A program made the translations under genes and the position numbers. 64,000 bases of DNA from Oceanispirochaeta crateris (GTDB lineage: Bacteria > Spirochaetota > Spirochaetia > DSM-2461), in NCBI RefSeq assembly GCF_008329965.1, contig NZ_CP036150.1, positions 1,364,001-1,428,000 on the forward strand. The letters are read 5' to 3'. The notes beneath the pieces were generated by a model. The model had not been told where the DNA came from. It did no database searches and worked only from the letters and a program-made list of their open reading frames with translations. Shown in pieces: positions 41,392 through 47,378 of this stretch. How positions within the stretch are numbered: position 1 is the stretch's first letter; every line of letters begins with the position of its first letter.

Positions 41392-41844
41392 ATGAGCGAG
41401 AAGGTTCATTATGAAGACAATCTCTTTTATCTTCACACAGAAATATCCAATATTCAAAACGGATTAAAACTCTCAATTGACAGTGAGTTTTTTGCCAGTA
41501 GAATCATAAATCAGATCTTTGCGATTGATGCTATTCTGAATCGGCATTATCTCCTGCTCAAGGAAAACCCCTATCTGATCAGACGAAATGACTTTCTATT
41601 TTCCATTCAGAAACTAAAAACAAAACTATCAAAACTCATAGAAACAGTTGAAGAAAAAAAATCATTCTTTTCCGAAAAGGATACTGAACGTTTTCCAGAA
41701 CTGAAAAGAAAAATGGCAGCCCATCTTATGGATGTCCAGAAAATTCGAAAAGAGATCAGCGAAAAGCTGGAAAGCTCTTCTGAAGATAGTTCCAGCCTCT
41801 CATCCAGTGAATATGAATTACTCATGCAATCTTCGGAAGAGTAA
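41392..41844 (+). CDS. Uncharacterised small alpha-helical protein
   Basis: Protein of 150 residues, mostly helical with Lys/Glu-rich coiled-coil character (about 65-130) and a Ser/Glu-rich C-terminal tail. No recognised family; no membrane segment or signal peptide. A perfect TATAAT (41361-41366) stands 31 bp before the ATG without a good -35, and GGGAG lies about 7 nt upstream of the ATG. It is divergent from rpsF, with the two promoter cores only about 25 bp apart. A hairpin GGAAGAG/CTCTTCC (41835-41854) overlaps its end but lacks a T-tract. Confidence 0.7.
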   Translation: MSEKVHYEDNLFYLHTEISNIQNGLKLSIDSEFFASRIINQIFAIDAILNRHYLLLKENPYLIRRNDFLFSIQKLKTKLSKLIETVEEKKSFFSEKDTERFPELKRKMAAHLMDVQKIRKEISEKLESSSEDSSSLSSSEYELLMQSSEE

Positions 41845-41886: not shown

Positions 41887-42909
41887 TCAATTGGATTCCG
41901 GTGTATATTCATTACCTACTTTTCTGGCTCGAACAGGAGTATCCAGATCGATTCCCAATGAGAGACCGGTTTCTACAAGAAGATTCCAGCCTGCTGCCAA
42001 TTCAACATAATTTTGAAAGTCTCCAGCCTCTGGAATAACGAGGCTGTGGGCAAAGGATGTTTTCCTAGGCGCAATAGAAATAATCTGAACCCCTACCCCG
42101 TCAGTCAGGCATTCTAAAAACTTAGCCTCCTCTTCTTCGAAGGGATCAACAATGATAAGAATATCACCAGGATTCATGACTTCTTCAATTCCATGAGCAC
42201 CATAGGTACCTTCCAAGAAATCAGATTTCTTTCTGGTAATTTCATTTGTTTTAAGTGTGAGTTCTTCTGCTACACCATTATTTCGACCAGAAAAGTAAAT
42301 CATATCAGCTTGGGCAATCAGTTGAATGACCGCAGGATCGATTTCCATTGATAGAGCCTGATCTACAGCTTTGGCAAGGGGATTAAGACCGTCCAGAGTC
42401 TTCCCTTCCAGGGCCGCTCTCAGCGCATCATAGAACAAGGCCTGTTCGGCAACGCTCTTTGTGGCAGCTACGGCATTTTCACTGCCACAGCTCAAAACAT
42501 ATGTTTCTTTGGAAAGAGACTCCAAAGCTGAATTCTTGGTGGCAGTCACAGCAAACAGGTCGGGATGATTATCACGGTTCAACTGATGGAAGAGCCGAAT
42601 CAGCTCCTTTGTTTTGCCGGAATTTGAAGAGCCGAAAACAGGCTTATTCATCAGCATATACTCCATTGCCTGCGTAGACCCTTCTGTAAAAAATCTGGTT
42701 TTCTCTCCTTTCATCAAAGACTGGGCTATGGCTCTTTTAGCCGGGAAGATTCTGCTGGAACCTTCCCCGGTAAGAAATATATCTTCAGAAGCTGAGCTTG
42801 TCTTTAAAAAACGATCCAAATGGGGGACATTAAAATTCCTGATAAGCTCTGGGGTCTCCAACATTTCTCTACATAGGGCATATTTCTGATATTTTTCTTC
42901 TTGGTTCAT
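41887..42909 (-). CDS. SIS-domain sugar isomerase/deaminase-like protein (AgaS/GlmS-C type)
   Basis: Protein of 340 residues with two SIS domains. LTGEGSSRIFPAKRA and GSSNSGKTKELI are phosphosugar-binding loops, and EELTLKTNEITRKKSDFLEGTYGAHGIEEV matches the GlmS/AgaS region where a Glu acts in isomerisation and a His comes from the neighbouring subunit. These enzymes interconvert aldose and ketose phosphates, with loss of ammonia in AgaS-type deaminases. The ATG at 42909 has GGAG upstream and overlaps the PIG-L gene by 4 nt (ATGA). Last gene of the ROK operon; substrate not known. Confidence 0.85.
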   Translation of the reverse strand: MNQEEKYQKYALCREMLETPELIRNFNVPHLDRFLKTSSASEDIFLTGEGSSRIFPAKRAIAQSLMKGEKTRFFTEGSTQAMEYMLMNKPVFGSSNSGKTKELIRLFHQLNRDNHPDLFAVTATKNSALESLSKETYVLSCGSENAVAATKSVAEQALFYDALRAALEGKTLDGLNPLAKAVDQALSMEIDPAVIQLIAQADMIYFSGRNNGVAEELTLKTNEITRKKSDFLEGTYGAHGIEEVMNPGDILIIVDPFEEEEAKFLECLTDGVGVQIISIAPRKTSFAHSLVIPEAGDFQNYVELAAGWNLLVETGLSLGIDLDTPVRARKVGNEYTPESN

Positions 42910-43679
42910 TTTCTGTTCTCCATTCGAATATAGTCTTTTAACGTTTCCTGAATAAAGGGATCTTTTTGAAACCCGCCTCCCAGATGCTGCCAGAAACACT
43001 CTGCATATTCCACTCCGGATTTTTCTCCCAGTTCCCGACTGAATTTTCTCATTTCACCAAAAAAATCATCAATCTTGTGCATGTGCTTCATTAATAGTTT
43101 TTGAGACTCATGACATCCAAGCATTTCAAGCTTCTTATCAATAGTCGAACTTATATCCACATAAAAATGGGGAGCGGCAATGGGAAATCCCAATGGATCA
43201 CTGAGGCTCATGGGAGCACTGTGATACAAAAGAGGCGTGATGGGCAACGGCTTCTCCTTTGAGGGGACATTGGGAAGGGATGAGATCATAGCCGCGGCAT
43301 CACATATAGTGCCGGTTGCTCGATGATCTGTATGATAATCATTCAAAAGATGAGTGATGACAATTCCTGCTTCAGTCTTCCGGATAATATCGACCAGCCT
43401 GATTCTGACTTCAGCATTGTCAAAAACAAATCCGTCTCTTTGATCAAGACAGTAATAATCTGCCTCCAGTAGTGCAGCAGCATTGTGGGCTTCTTCCTTA
43501 CGGATACGGGTAGTCTCTTCCTCATCACCGTTCATACCACCCAGACCTCCTGCTGTCATTGTGACAATGGAGATTTTAAAACCGGCTTCTTTAAGGAGTG
43601 CTAATGTACCGGCACACCAGGCTTCAGCATCGTCTGGATGAGCCTGAACCACTAGAATATTTTTTTTGAATTCGGTCAT
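42906..43679 (-). CDS. PIG-L/LmbE family zinc deacetylase
   Basis: Protein of 257 residues with the PIG-L zinc motifs HPDD (14-17) and HTDH (116-119) and a TMTAGGLGG loop. Members remove N-acetyl groups from GlcNAc-containing compounds (PIG-L, MshB, BshB, chitobiose deacetylases). No signal peptide, so it acts in the cytoplasm. It lies 3 bp after the PFK gene and overlaps the SIS gene, suggesting that an N-acetylated sugar (phosphate) is deacetylated before isomerisation/deamination. Substrate is inference. Confidence 0.88.
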   Translation of the reverse strand: MTEFKKNILVVQAHPDDAEAWCAGTLALLKEAGFKISIVTMTAGGLGGMNGDEEETTRIRKEEAHNAAALLEADYYCLDQRDGFVFDNAEVRIRLVDIIRKTEAGIVITHLLNDYHTDHRATGTICDAAAMISSLPNVPSKEKPLPITPLLYHSAPMSLSDPLGFPIAAPHFYVDISSTIDKKLEMLGCHESQKLLMKHMHKIDDFFGEMRKFSRELGEKSGVEYAECFWQHLGGGFQKDPFIQETLKDYIRMENRK

Positions 43680-43682
43680 ATC

Positions 43683-44885
43683 CTATTCCTTATAAAACTT
43701 ATTTTCTAATGCGACGAACTGCGGTAGTGATGAGATTAGGGGAGTCATATAATTTAGAAATTCATCACTCACATCGTTCCCTCTTTCATTGATATACTCC
43801 CGGGGCATAGCCCTGGCCTTAACGGCAACATCCTCAAGGGCGGCCTGCCCTAGAGAAAAAGAACAATCCGGATTCCTTTTGATAGTGACCATAACAGCAC
43901 TGGTTCCCCCACAGGCTAGCCGTACTGCCTCTTGACCGCATTTATATGCCATATCCAGGTCTTGGGGCTCAGACCTGTCGAAAGCACTCATAATGAGTGA
44001 TTCTGTAATCTGAAATTCTCCGCGGGCCCCCTCTAAAGCATCAGTGAGGATTCTATGAACATTCAAGGCAACACTTGCCCCCCCCATGGCTCCAAATTCG
44101 GTATTATTAAACTTGTCTTTATTTTGAGAAGCGCTTACAGGAGTCCCGTCTTTATACAGCAGACCTTCACTGACTACGATAGAAACCCATCCATACTTCC
44201 TGATGCATTCTTTTGCATCCTCTATCATCTGTTCCGGCGCCAAGGGTCTTTCCGGACAATAGATAAGATGAGGGGCATCACCCTCTTTCTTTCTTGCAAG
44301 GGCTGTTGCTGCGGCAAGCCATCCGGCATCACGCCCGATGGTCTGATATATGACAAACTGATCCACCTTTTTCATATCCCGCGCCAAGACTCCCGCCTGG
44401 AGTACATTCAGGATATTGCTGCGGGCAGCAGATGGAAATCCCGGGGTATAATCTGTTCCGAATAAATCGTTATCAACAGTCTTGGGTATTCCAATTCCCC
44501 GGAGCTCATAGTTTTGTTCTCGGCAGTAGAGCTCTACCCTGTGTACCGTATCCATCGTATCGTTTCCACCAATAAGGAAAAAATAACGGATATTATATTT
44601 TTTTAAGATTTCAAGTATGACGGGAAAATCATCCTCTACCAGCTTATGACGGGAAGAACCCAGAGCTGAAGATGGAGTGCCTCTTAACCCCTTTATGACT
44701 TCAGGGCTCTGGGCACTTAGGTCAAAAAAATCTTCATTCATAAAACCTTCTATACCAAAATTCATACCAAGAATTTTAGTAATAGCCTCTTCTTCAAGAG
44801 CCTTCGATATGACTCCGGCAAGACTTGAATTTATTACTGATGTAGGGCCTCCTGACTGACCAACTACAGCTTTACCTTTCAACAT
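43683..44885 (-). CDS. 6-phosphofructokinase family protein, probably PPi-dependent
   Basis: Protein of 400 residues with the PFK fold: VVGQSGGPTSVINSSL, GGNDT (106-110) and PKTVDND (134-140), then FVIYQTIGRDAGW and ESLIMSAFDRSEPQDLD. In ATP enzymes the two key positions are Gly (GGDG and PGTIDND); Asp109 and Lys135 here are the changes tied to pyrophosphate use, though Asn at 108 is also unusual. It phosphorylates a ketose 6-phosphate or acts reversibly. First enzyme gene after the ROK regulator, overlapping it by 14 nt. Confidence 0.88.
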   Translation of the reverse strand: MLKGKAVVGQSGGPTSVINSSLAGVISKALEEEAITKILGMNFGIEGFMNEDFFDLSAQSPEVIKGLRGTPSSALGSSRHKLVEDDFPVILEILKKYNIRYFFLIGGNDTMDTVHRVELYCREQNYELRGIGIPKTVDNDLFGTDYTPGFPSAARSNILNVLQAGVLARDMKKVDQFVIYQTIGRDAGWLAAATALARKKEGDAPHLIYCPERPLAPEQMIEDAKECIRKYGWVSIVVSEGLLYKDGTPVSASQNKDKFNNTEFGAMGGASVALNVHRILTDALEGARGEFQITESLIMSAFDRSEPQDLDMAYKCGQEAVRLACGGTSAVMVTIKRNPDCSFSLGQAALEDVAVKARAMPREYINERGNDVSDEFLNYMTPLISSLPQFVALENKFYKE

Positions 44886-46002
44886 GCGTACCTCCCTGGT
44901 TTTTTTTTAACTTGATGACTTTTTCCCATTGTCCCTTTAAAAGTGCTGACTCATTGAAACCGGGAAGAGTGAAAATTGTTCTGATAAAAAAAGATGAAGC
45001 CCCCTGAGCGACCTCCCAGAGCCCCTTATCGGAAAAGCTCCATTTGAAGGGAATGGAAGATTTCAGTGCAGCTTCTAGTTTTAGACTGTGTTGGAAGAAC
45101 TCTCCACCCAAAATCACACTGTGTGGATCTAGAGCCGAAATAATGGGATTCAGAGTTTTAAAGAGGGTCAAAATGTATGTCTCTATTGCTGCCATATCTG
45201 ATGACCCTTGTTCTTTTAATTCCCTCAAAAATAAGTCTCGCAGCTCATCACTCACCGGAGAATTCATCAGTTCACCAGCTGCAAAACCTGACCCGTGGTA
45301 TACCGATCCATGATGGACAATCCCGATGCCGATTTCCTGGTCCCAGGTCTGCTGACTCTCGGGAGAATGGAACTGCAACAAGAGACAGACCAGATTTCCA
45401 TCGAACTCTCGGCGTCCCATAATTTCACCCCAGGCAAAACAATTAGCATCATTTTCAATCAGGACCGGCACCCCGAGGTTTTCCACCAGTATTTCAGTCA
45501 AGTTTGTCTCAAAAAGAGCCAGAGGCTTGGATGAAATAACCCTGCCCAAGTCAGGGTTGATCCTACCGGGAAGCCCCAGAGCTACTCCGGAAATTCTATC
45601 AGAGAATTCATTTTCAAGATTCTGAATCAATTTTTTGGCTGTATCCGTGAATTGAGAGATTGTATTCGCCATCAAGTCCATCATGCCCTGTTTTAAGGAC
45701 TGACCCGTGAGGTTTGATAGGCTATAGCGGAGGTATGAATCCTGCCATTCTATTCCCAAAATCAATCGCTCCACAATTTTCAATCCAATAGGGATTCGAC
45801 CACCCCGTTCACCTGAACGTGCGGTTTTCTCTTCCCTGATGTACCCGTCTAAGAGAAGATCATTCACAATATGAGTCAATGTTGATCTATTGAGTCCCAG
45901 GATTTCCGAGGCCTCTATTCGACTGACACCCGGTCTGATTCTAATTAGATTTAATGTTCTGCTCCGGTTGATCTTTCCTTCCTGGACCTTGTTAACGGTC
46001 AT
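44872..46002 (-). CDS. ROK family transcriptional regulator
   Basis: Protein of 376 residues: an N-terminal winged helix-turn-helix (SRIEASEILGLNRSTLTHIVNDLLLDGYI, about 26-55) followed by a sugar-kinase-like ROK domain with ALGLPGRIN, ENDANCFAWGE and GIGIVHHG. The HxxxCxxxCxxC-type zinc motif of many ROK proteins is not evident. The ATG at 46002 has AAGGG 10 nt upstream; an ATG at 46041 would start almost at the predicted transcription start. It heads the operon ROK-PFK-PIG-L-SIS and probably regulates it in response to a sugar or sugar phosphate. Confidence 0.9.
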   Translation of the reverse strand: MTVNKVQEGKINRSRTLNLIRIRPGVSRIEASEILGLNRSTLTHIVNDLLLDGYIREEKTARSGERGGRIPIGLKIVERLILGIEWQDSYLRYSLSNLTGQSLKQGMMDLMANTISQFTDTAKKLIQNLENEFSDRISGVALGLPGRINPDLGRVISSKPLALFETNLTEILVENLGVPVLIENDANCFAWGEIMGRREFDGNLVCLLLQFHSPESQQTWDQEIGIGIVHHGSVYHGSGFAAGELMNSPVSDELRDLFLRELKEQGSSDMAAIETYILTLFKTLNPIISALDPHSVILGGEFFQHSLKLEAALKSSIPFKWSFSDKGLWEVAQGASSFFIRTIFTLPGFNESALLKGQWEKVIKLKKNQGGTHVER

Positions 46003-46018
46003 GTGTCTTACACCCTTA

Positions 46019-46037
46019 TTGTTGATTGTTTCAACAA
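46019..46037 (-). promoter_or_regulatory. Candidate operator of the ROK operon
   Basis: A perfect inverted repeat with 7-bp arms (TTGTTGA, 46019-46025, and TCAACAA, 46031-46037) and a 5-bp centre spans the predicted transcription start, where a repressor would block transcription. ROK regulators such as NagC and XylR use T/A-rich inverted repeats, so autoregulation is plausible. Confidence 0.55.
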
Positions 46038-46041
46038 ACAT

Positions 46042-46070
46042 ATCATAAAATTGTACTCGTGAATTGTCAA
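46042..46070 (-). promoter_or_regulatory. Promoter of the ROK operon
   Basis: On the minus strand: perfect TTGACA (46065-46070), 17-bp spacer, TATGAT (46042-46047); start near 46035. Confidence 0.8.
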
Positions 46071-46151: not shown

Positions 46152-47378
46152 TTAGAATTGAGATAACTCTTTCAGCTCCTCAAAACGACTCTGAGCCATT
46201 ATAGACATGGAAGAATCCTTCCCTTCCCCGTAAATCATCAATCTATCCTCATTTTGTTCCACCCTTGAAATCCCTAGATCCAAAGCATCACCAGTGTAGG
46301 AAAAAAAGGCCGTTCCATAGTTGAGAACCCTCGTTTCTCCAGGATGGAGCACAATATGAGTGGGATGTCCCATGAGGGATGGATTCTTAACAGATTCTTC
46401 AAGACCGTTGGCAAAATAGCTGACGGAATTTTCAGATCCCAGACAAAATGACCGGTCACACCCTCCATCCTGAGCTGCCCAGGGCTGGAAGGGTCTCCCA
46501 CCATAATTCATCCAATAGTTATAGAAGAAAAGAGGGATTTCTGATTTACCCAGTTTAGCGGGTCCCGTAAACCAGGAGAGATACACAAGCTTTTGTCTGG
46601 TATTGACAACAGCAGACCAGCCCAGGGGGCTATCGGAGGGTACTTTCGCTGTAATAAAATCTGTGTAGCCCGTCACTCCGGGGACTCTGGACATATCAAC
46701 TGTTCCCCCTGCTCTCAGGGCCATTGATTTGAGGGAACTGCTGGTTGAACCAGGTTGAAGCTGACTTGTATTATCAAATTCTGTTCCTAGAGGGGGAACC
46801 ATAAATTCATTTGAATTATTATTAATAAGGCATCCTGACTCCAAAAAGGGAGCTCCCACCGTGTTGTGCCAACCAATGTTAAGCTCTTCTTCAGAATCAG
46901 AACGATTGGAGACAGCAAGGCTAGTATAATGAACATTCTCATGAGCTCGAATCATATCCACTTTTTTAAAAGTCAGAGCTTGATTCTCTGGAGATAACTC
47001 CCATTGGACCGAAACAGAACCCTTTTCCTTTCTTAGACCCTGATTTTTCCAAGGCATAGAACTGGTAAAACCATGAGGAGGCAATTCCGAACCTTTCCAG
47101 CTGTGTCCGGGACCAAAATTGGGACAGCAGGGAAAGTTTCCAGCAATATCAAACAAGAGGGGAACCTTCCAGTAGGCTTCATGTTTCTCTGCTATCCATT
47201 TATCAGAAGAAGTATTTCGGAACCAGGGCTGCCAATGGGCATTGATCCACGCTTTGCCTTTGCGAGAACAGAGTTCGGGAACCATCCCCTTCTCTTGATT
47301 GATCAATACCCGGAATGAATCATTCTCCAGCAAAACACTCTCACGGTCACCGATGTCGTAGGTTTTCTCAATTTTCAT
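46152..47378 (-). CDS. Galactose mutarotase-like (aldose 1-epimerase superfamily) protein
   Basis: Protein of 408 residues, beta-rich throughout, with the supersandwich features of the galactose mutarotase-like superfamily: LLENDSFRVLINQEKGMVPEL, PPHGFTSSMPW (a region that holds a catalytic His in mutarotases), WHNTVGAPF, LHPGETRVL. Exact family is not recognised and the catalytic Glu is not certain. No signal peptide. AGGGAG precedes the ATG. It lies just upstream of the ROK operon, with a terminator between. It may act on the same sugar, which is inference. Confidence 0.7.
   Translation of the reverse strand: MKIEKTYDIGDRESVLLENDSFRVLINQEKGMVPELCSRKGKAWINAHWQPWFRNTSSDKWIAEKHEAYWKVPLLFDIAGNFPCCPNFGPGHSWKGSELPPHGFTSSMPWKNQGLRKEKGSVSVQWELSPENQALTFKKVDMIRAHENVHYTSLAVSNRSDSEEELNIGWHNTVGAPFLESGCLINNNSNEFMVPPLGTEFDNTSQLQPGSTSSSLKSMALRAGGTVDMSRVPGVTGYTDFITAKVPSDSPLGWSAVVNTRQKLVYLSWFTGPAKLGKSEIPLFFYNYWMNYGGRPFQPWAAQDGGCDRSFCLGSENSVSYFANGLEESVKNPSLMGHPTHIVLHPGETRVLNYGTAFFSYTGDALDLGISRVEQNEDRLMIYGEGKDSSMSIMAQSRFEELKELSQF

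Follow-up and report, generated by a model that had tools for sequence, protein, structure and literature searches.

A ROK-PFK-PIG-L-SIS operon in Oceanispirochaeta crateris: a candidate amino-sugar catabolic module with stand-ins for NagA and NagB

Could four adjoining genes of the spirochaete Oceanispirochaeta crateris, none of which is NagA or NagB, serve the breakdown of an N-acetylated amino sugar? The genes lie in a stretch of 64,000 nucleotides of contig NZ_CP036150.1 (here termed the window, and the genome to which it belongs the window genome), where four open reading frames on the minus strand (41887-46041) encode a ROK protein, a phosphofructokinase (PFK), a PIG-L protein and a double-SIS protein. 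An earlier, sequence-only reading of this DNA proposed such a role, and we have followed it through other genomes. The features are as follows.

46042..46070, minus strand: sigma-70-type promoter, -35 TTGACA (46070-46065), 17-nt spacer, -10 TATGAT (46047-46042); 11/12, by consensus match only
46019..46037, no strand assigned: palindrome TTGTTGA-N5-TCAACAA at the expected transcription start, conserved upstream of ROK; candidate ROK operator
44872..46002 (ORF to ATG 46041), minus strand: ROK/NagC-type transcriptional repressor, winged helix plus ROK domain (PF00480)
43683..44885, minus strand: PPi-dependent-type phosphofructokinase, 400 aa (PF00365, PRK14072)
42906..43679, minus strand: PIG-L/LmbE-family Zn deacetylase, 257 aa (PF02585)
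41887..42909, minus strand: double-SIS sugar-phosphate deaminase/isomerase, 340 aa, predicted glucosamine-6-phosphate deaminase (PF01380)

Operon and control region

The four families named by the sequence-only reading are matched by PF00480, PF00365, PF02585 and PF01380, and the junctions of 14, 3 and 4 nt that it gave are exact by ORF coordinates: the ROK stop (44872) and the PFK ATG (44885) share 14 nt, 3 nt lie between the PFK stop (43683) and the PIG-L ATG (43679), and the PIG-L stop (42906) and the SIS ATG (42909) share 4 nt. The strong promoter claimed ahead of the four genes was recovered as the sole site above 9/12 in a scan that returned 10 promoter-like sites against 9.3 in shuffles, i.e., no overall excess. 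Because the -10 element ends at 46042, the ROK gene probably starts at ATG 46002, behind AAGGGTG, rather than at ATG 46041. The co-directional gene further upstream (46152-47378) was set aside as a pathway member, since its homologues in relatives belong to a different group of genes (D-lyxose isomerase/PfkB/mannitol-1-P dehydrogenase-like).

The ROK protein scores 60.5 bits against PF00480 and carries MarR_2/HTH_24 at its N terminus; its nearest equivalogs are NagC and Mlc, with scores far under their cut-offs. Exact copies of the palindrome precede the ROK gene in two other loci (L042 and L043, in our numbering) and the variant TTGTTGATTTAATAAACAA precedes it in L039, L044, L046, L052 and L074, while a search of 1.23 Mb of loci with the relaxed motif gave no further site. 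The protein shows the features of the ROK/NagC type, an N-terminal HTH, a ROK domain and a palindrome at its own promoter, for which an operator role is predicted. In the rest of the window genome (1.6 Mb scanned of 4.0 Mb) there was no second exact copy, and the two sites with one mismatch, at 272158 and 1159590, are compatible with chance. The site at 272158 lies 204 nt ahead of a GHMP-kinase-like gene.

Conservation, neighbours and exclusion of NagB

PFK, PIG-L and SIS adjoin one another in the same direction in 24 other distinct genomes while their flanks vary, so the arrangement is not due to chance. The search for the same set elsewhere, which the sequence-only reading had recommended together with a look at shared neighbours, also brought up genes of sugar metabolism. 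The order in L125 is Gfo/Idh-NahK-GalT-like-PFK-PIGL-SIS-CBM9-LacI-GalE, and GH20, NahK, CBM9, PFK, PIGL, SIS and GalE meet in L129 and L130; NahK (N-acetylhexosamine 1-kinase) matches PDB 4wh1 at E 4.5e-84, the GH20 gene encodes a hexosaminidase and GalE is a GalE-like epimerase. In L053 a sugar ABC transporter belongs to the PFK-PIGL-SIS operon, and an ABC transporter adjoins PFK-SIS in L066, L067 and L069. Glucokinase adjoins PIG-L in L101-L103, within the order PFK-PIGL-glucokinase-symporter in L101 and L102, whose host genomes have NagB and no SIS.

Over 118 genomes, SIS and NagB occur together in 1, SIS alone in 42, NagB alone in 39 and neither in 36 (p 3.5e-9; 8e-4 after collapse to genera), statistics that consist of genome counts and a genus collapse and model the species tree only in part. 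Among NagA-bearing genomes, NagB is found in 1/20 with SIS vs. 30/33 without, and among NagA-bearing genera in 1/11 vs. 21/23 (p 5e-6). Ten genomes with both SIS and NagA hold no NagB-family protein at E 1e-10, so SIS is their only evident GlcN6P deaminase. This near mutual exclusion lends indirect support to the proposal that SIS takes the place of NagB. For PIG-L the relation is less direct: NagA is also present in 20 of the 43 SIS-bearing genomes, and PIG-L is therefore not a simple replacement of NagA.

The window genome gave no match to NagA (TIGR00221) at E 1e-10, and its best scores against canonical NagB (TIGR00502) were 106.6 and 45.9 bits for a cut-off of 236.9, so that the reported absence of a transporter, NagA and NagB nearby is correct and, for NagA and canonical NagB, applies genome-wide. 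The 106.6-bit paralogue sits in an apparent TRAP-transporter/polyol-dehydrogenase cluster, and the weak NagB paralogues could be active. The NagB-PIG-L fusion PRK02122 (NF002557), found in 7/118 genomes, all of the same class, is absent from the window genome, in which no PTS EIIC, PF02685 glucokinase or NagK-sized BadF was found either. The operon includes no gene for such a kinase or for a transporter, and none was identified with certainty in the genome; the transporter of L053 has a close homologue here, which is followed by a beta-mannosidase-like GH2.

The three enzymes

PFK scores 385.6 bits against the diphosphate-type NCBIfam model PRK14072 (cut-off 273) and matches PDB 3k2q at E 3.7e-67. 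Its GGNDT and PKTVDND motifs place Asp and Lys where residues 104 and 124 lie in E. coli PfkA, the pair of the PPi-dependent type that had been thought probable. GGNDT was seen in 42/57 and PKTVDND in 41/57 orthologue sequences, with no variant form observed, many of the sequences without a motif match being incomplete at locus ends. The enzyme is predicted to use PPi as phosphoryl donor and fructose-6-P as substrate.

The PIG-L protein has the PIG-L fold and HxDD...HxDH Zn site of the Dac (CE14) enzymes, its HPDD and HTDH motifs being invariant in 21 sequences, and the best solved relative of its profile is the diacetylchitobiose deacetylase 8bgn (E 3.3e-36). An AlphaFold2 model from a three-sequence alignment reached a mean pLDDT of 48. 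A second PIG-L, ~20% identical, adjoins PFK-SIS in L059, L060, L066, L068, L070, L071 and L127, and replaces the first one in other lineages.

The SIS protein, of 340 aa and without a glutaminase domain, falls within the ~330-340 aa of two-SIS-domain chains, and its profile covers both halves of 8eol, 2cb0 and the GlmS isomerase domain. K220, E223, H239 and K330 are invariant across 31 homologues, the first three aligned to solved relatives and K330 placed by a DxDxPxxxxK motif; we take them to be K485, E488, H504 and K603 of the E. coli GlmS isomerase, whose set of catalytic residues is thus complete. The homologues match the GlmS model in 31/31, NagB-II in 29/31 and GlmD in 13/31 cases, the NagB-II and GlmD matches being weak (e.g., 36 bits for L073 against the NagB-II cut-off of 430), and the window protein matches neither NF046059 nor NF041128 at E 0.001. 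Judged by these scores, it is a subfamily separate from NagB-II and GlmD, and it is predicted to deaminate GlcN-6-P. Its AlphaFold2 model, again from a three-sequence alignment, has a mean pLDDT of 43, and no homologue was found in the plasmid collection. SIS is accompanied by the hexapeptide-repeat protein DUF4954 in L053, L054, L057, L061, L063 and L079; PFK and PIG-L are missing from L054, L057, L061 and L063, and the role of SIS there may be different.

Proposed pathway, alternatives and meaning

Gene content, co-directional order, conservation, NagB exclusion, neighbours and catalytic residues were directly observed. What the enzymes do, the use of PPi, the precise substrate, the pairing of repressor with operator and whether deacetylation or phosphorylation comes first are inferred. 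The four genes are likely to form a locally repressed catabolic module for a GlcNAc-type amino sugar with stand-ins for NagA and NagB, and the conserved set, the phylogenetic replacement of NagB and the neighbouring NahK, GH20, GalE-like, glucokinase and ABC transporter genes support the amino-sugar role first proposed. As NagA does, PIG-L would take the acetyl group off its substrate, an N-acetylhexosamine that is most probably GlcNAc or GlcNAc-6-P, a kinase encoded elsewhere in the genome would provide the 6-phosphate, and SIS would do the work of NagB by turning glucosamine-6-phosphate into fructose-6-phosphate and ammonia through a GlmS-isomerase-type mechanism. The PPi-type PFK would then commit fructose-6-phosphate to glycolysis, and ROK, acting at the palindrome of its own promoter, would keep the operon repressed until a pathway sugar binds.

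Two orders of steps can be considered within this pathway. To the first, which overlaps with the general proposal, we give slightly less than an even chance: the substrate of PIG-L is free GlcNAc or a short oligosaccharide of chito- or glycan origin, a glucokinase-type enzyme phosphorylates the resulting glucosamine and SIS deaminates it, in the manner of Dac and GlmD in the Thermococcales. It is favoured by the PIG-L profile, whose nearest relatives of solved structure are Dac enzymes, by the glucokinase beside PIG-L in L101-L103, by the lack of a PTS in the window genome and by the sugar ABC transporter within the L053 operon; however, the NahK homologue of L125, L129 and L130 would phosphorylate ahead of deacetylation, and the window genome, having no PF02685 glucokinase, would need a kinase of another family. 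More tentatively, PIG-L may deacetylate a phosphorylated monosaccharide (GlcNAc-6-P or a HexNAc-1-P made by NahK) ahead of a new subfamily of SIS deaminase and a dedicated PPi-dependent PFK, a simultaneous non-orthologous replacement of the textbook enzymes in many spirochaete families.

A GalNAc pathway, with SIS as an AgaS-like galactosamine-6-P deaminase and PFK acting on tagatose-6-P with PPi, is unlikely. AgaS is a SIS protein, and partners of the NahK and GalE type handle both GlcNAc and GalNAc compounds, but the exclusion concerns the GlcN6P deaminase NagB, also given NagA, and in the loci read none of the genes beside the operon was recognised as a tagatose-bisphosphate aldolase. Quite improbable, too, is an anabolic SIS that makes GlcN-6-P from fructose-6-P and ammonia, or a SIS that acts on another amino sugar for envelope glycans, with PIG-L and PFK merely co-regulated: GlmS is a homologue and DUF4954 keeps company with SIS in six loci, yet the surrounding ROK repressor, ABC transporters, GH20, NahK and PFK, as well as the mutual exclusion with a catabolic NagB, point to catabolism.

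We give hardly any credence to bacillithiol-type or other thiol or glycolipid biosynthesis with PIG-L as a BshB-like GlcNAc-malate deacetylase or relative, for although BshB1 is its top NCBIfam model, PIG-L stays under the cut-offs of TIGR04001 (109.3 vs. 182.5 bits) and TIGR04000 (58.4 vs. 195.25), and thiol synthesis has no use for PFK or a sugar-phosphate SIS. BshC (PF10079) occurs in 5/118 genomes, neither the window genome nor any with SIS among them, which excludes bacillithiol as the conserved role; with the set itself conserved, both outcomes that the sequence-only reading had named as speaking against it, a set confined to this genome and bacillithiol-type substrates, did not occur. 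Equally remote is a fructosamine/Amadori pathway with SIS as an FrlB-like deglycase, a double-SIS enzyme with the E and H common to fructosamine-6-P deglycases, as the deglycase 3eua is among the SIS profile matches (E 1.2e-8) but scores below GlmS, NagB-II and GlmD, and a PIG-L deacetylase with NahK/GH20 partners makes no sense for Amadori compounds.

The module shares its net reaction, HexNAc-6-P to fructose-6-phosphate, with the NagA/NagB pathway, but both enzymes are swapped for unrelated families and a PPi-type PFK is added. In the chitin pathway of Thermococcales (diacetylchitobiose deacetylase Dac, GlmA and GlmD; PMC3512248, PMC9779004), a PIG-L-family deacetylase and a SIS-type GlcN-6-P deaminase likewise lead into glycolysis; the present module differs in being bacterial, in forming an operon with a ROK repressor and a PPi-type PFK, in lacking an adjacent GlmA, in the weak similarity of its SIS to GlmD and in the NahK kinase or GH20 that joins it in some loci. 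NagB-II (SO3506) of Shewanella, a SIS-type GlcN-6-P deaminase used with NagA and NagK (PMC2996990), resembles our protein as a double-SIS chain of ~330-340 aa, solved as 8eol, that replaces NagB in GlcNAc catabolism, whereas the window operon has PIG-L and the homologues, where scored, lie far under the 430-bit cut-off. PRK02122 (“glucosamine-6-phosphate deaminase-like protein”) also couples a GlcN-6-P deaminase domain with PIG-L, but in one polypeptide, with the NagB fold in place of SIS and no PFK, while the window operon encodes separate chains. A catabolic PIG-L, which the sequence-only reading considered unusual, hence has precedents in archaeal Dac and this fusion. NahK with GalT-like and GalE-like genes in L125, and with GalE-like genes in L129 and L130, recalls the bifidobacterial LNB/GNB pathway (NahK, GalT, GalE), although these genes are missing at the window locus and no LNB/GNB phosphorylase was recognised.

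As its parts have relatives in Dac/GlmD, Shewanella NagB-II and PRK02122, the module combines known chemistry in a new way, and no description of the operon was found in the open-access papers searched, subscription literature lying outside that scope. Genomes such as this one, without NagA and canonical NagB, would be judged by annotation to be incapable of GlcNAc use, for which the module may offer a route. A SIS subfamily receives a predicted function through it, as do an orphan PIG-L and the extra PPi-type PFK, and the module would be a clean case, open to testing, in which unrelated enzymes rebuild a central pathway in parallel to the archaeal chitin route.

Gene order and putative operator

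The four closely adjoining genes described in the sequence-only reading are borne out by the positions of their open reading frames, and their families by Pfam and NCBIfam matches:

44872-46041 (likely start ATG 46002), minus strand: ROK repressor
43683-44885, minus strand: PPi-type phosphofructokinase (PFK)
42906-43679, minus strand: PIG-L, deacetylase family
41887-42909, minus strand: double-SIS protein (SIS), predicted glucosamine-6-phosphate (GlcN-6-P) deaminase

ROK and PFK overlap by 14 nt, PFK and PIG-L are 3 nt apart, and PIG-L and SIS overlap by 4 nt. PFK exceeds the NCBIfam cut-off of PRK14072 (diphosphate-type subfamily), and its GGNDT and PKTVDND motifs contain the Asp and Lys residues usual in PPi-dependent PFKs. 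With the promoter, TTGACA-17-TATGAT, ending at 46042, transcription would start inside the longest ROK frame, so translation most likely starts at 46002, an ATG preceded by AAGGGTG. Positions 46019-46037 form a perfect palindrome, TTGTTGA-N5-TCAACAA; among loci fetched from related genomes (L numbers) it is exact in L042 and L043 and reads TTGTTGATTTAATAAACAA in L039, L044, L046, L052, and L074. Within the 1.23 Mb of DNA fetched, the relaxed motif is confined to sites immediately upstream of this ROK gene, and no second exact copy was found in 1.6 Mb scanned of the rest of the window's genome. This placement fits an autoregulating ROK repressor that would bind the palindrome as its operator.

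Conservation of the module and exclusion of NagB

Of 118 genomes of the class, 43 carry a SIS orthologue; in a phylum-wide sample of 393, 21 do. Reading the loci around SIS, we found PFK-PIG-L-SIS as a contiguous, co-directional set in 24 distinct genomes other than the window's own. Flanking genes are common to near relatives only, indicating that the module itself is the conserved unit. Seven loci (L059, L060, L066, L068, L070, L071, L127) lack PIG-L between PFK and SIS and instead carry another PIG-L, ~20% identical, 3′ of SIS, followed by an aldose-1-epimerase-like gene. That two divergent PIG-L types adjoin the same PFK-SIS pair is strong evidence for deacetylation as a step of the predicted pathway.

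Canonical NagB (TIGR00502 above cut-off) occurs in 40 of these 118 class genomes, only one of which also has SIS (Fisher p 3.5e-9). NagA is independent of SIS (20/43 genomes with SIS, 33/75 without). Among NagA-bearing genomes, NagB accompanies 1 of 20 with SIS vs. 30 of 33 without. Collapsed by genus, the two contrasts give p 8e-4 and 5e-6, respectively, which accounts only partly for the species tree. Ten genomes with both SIS and NagA hold no NagB-family protein at E 1e-10, leaving SIS as the only evident deaminase for NagA-made GlcN-6-P.

At the same place as in the window, L101 and L102 carry an inverted PFK-PIG-L operon, which suggests an ancestral site. A conserved 150-aa protein without Pfam match (41392-41844) stands beside rpsF-ssb-rpsR-rplI-dnaB in several genera, and one similar in size and start occupies this site in L101/L102. 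The 408-aa protein at 46152-47378 matches DUF4432 only marginally; in L040 and L043, of the same genus, its counterpart closes a D-lyxose isomerase/PfkB kinase/mannitol-1-P dehydrogenase-like group that is missing in the window.

Neighbours and substrate class

Module neighbours in other genomes point to the likely substrate class. L125 holds, in one co-directional run, Gfo/Idh, NahK-like kinase, GalT-like, PFK, PIG-L, SIS, CBM9, LacI-type regulator, and GalE-like epimerase genes; in L129 and L130 a GH20 protein joins the set. The L129 NahK-like protein matches N-acetylhexosamine 1-kinase 4wh1 (E 4.5e-84), and the GH20 protein a beta-N-acetylhexosaminidase (E 4.8e-32). Two loci of NagB-bearing, SIS-lacking genomes (L101, L102) have a PFK-PIG-L-glucokinase operon followed by a sodium symporter and GH2, L103 has CBM9-PIG-L-glucokinase with no PFK on the contig, and seven genomes of the class encode NagB-PIG-L fusions (PRK02122). 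A substrate-binding protein and two permeases lie directly 5′ of PFK-PIG-L-SIS in L053, and transporters adjoin PFK-SIS in L066, L067, and L069.

Free CBM9 proteins occur within the same operon in L052, L103, L125, L129, L130, and L133, and a 636-aa frame (L047:10601-12508) fuses CBM9 (PF16011) to PFK. A DUF4954 (PF16314) plus DUF6819 hexapeptide-repeat protein of ~715-750 aa adjoins SIS in L053, L054, L057, L061, L063, and L079, regardless of whether PFK and PIG-L are present, and it seems genuinely connected with amino-sugar phosphates. At L073:1507-4810, genes for a GH4 glycosidase and a BadF/NagK-like kinase line up with one for a distant SIS homologue (37% identity), possibly forming another amino-sugar operon.

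NagA, canonical NagB, PTS EIIC, and PF02685 glucokinase are all absent from the window's genome. Since PF02685 is lacking and the only two BadF proteins are giant, the pathway kinase probably belongs to another family, ROK or PfkB. At ~685-688.5 kb the genome encodes an ABC transporter that shares 66-73% identity with the one in L053 and is accompanied by a ROK repressor and a GH2 resembling beta-mannosidase (L168:2522-9827, ~682.5-689.8 kb); this system may import a glycan fragment containing mannose and GlcNAc. Another region of the same genome (L164:1564-7604, ~601.5-607.6 kb) has genes for a ROK-type repressor, a sugar ABC transporter, and a protein of 598 aa that resembles a SIS/MurQ-type sugar-phosphate enzyme in its N-terminal part.

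Relation to known amino-sugar pathways

K220, E223, H239, and K330 are invariant across the SIS alignment. In profile alignments, the first three match the Lys, Glu, and His of the GlmS catalytic site and the equivalent residues of NagB-II (8eol). The metal site is kept throughout the PIG-L alignment, and diacetylchitobiose deacetylases rank first with the PIG-L profile; structure models of both proteins were of too poor quality for fold search. Dac is a PIG-L protein and GlmD a SIS protein, in line with the profile matches here. Chitin catabolism in Thermococcales employs this pair, deacetylase Dac and GlcN-6-P deaminase GlmD (PMC3512248, PMC9779004); in Shewanella, the GlcN-6-P deaminase activity of NagB-II has been confirmed by experiment (PMC2996990). 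The SIS family falls below the cut-offs of both named models, NagB-II and GlmD, and therefore forms a separate subfamily, probably with a like mode of action.

Conservation, NagB exclusion, and neighbours support the core of the proposed amino-sugar pathway, which we consider rather likely to hold. No description of the whole combination with PPi-type PFK and ROK repressor was found in the open-access papers searched; the pathway would be of a known kind, and this combination a new variant of it.
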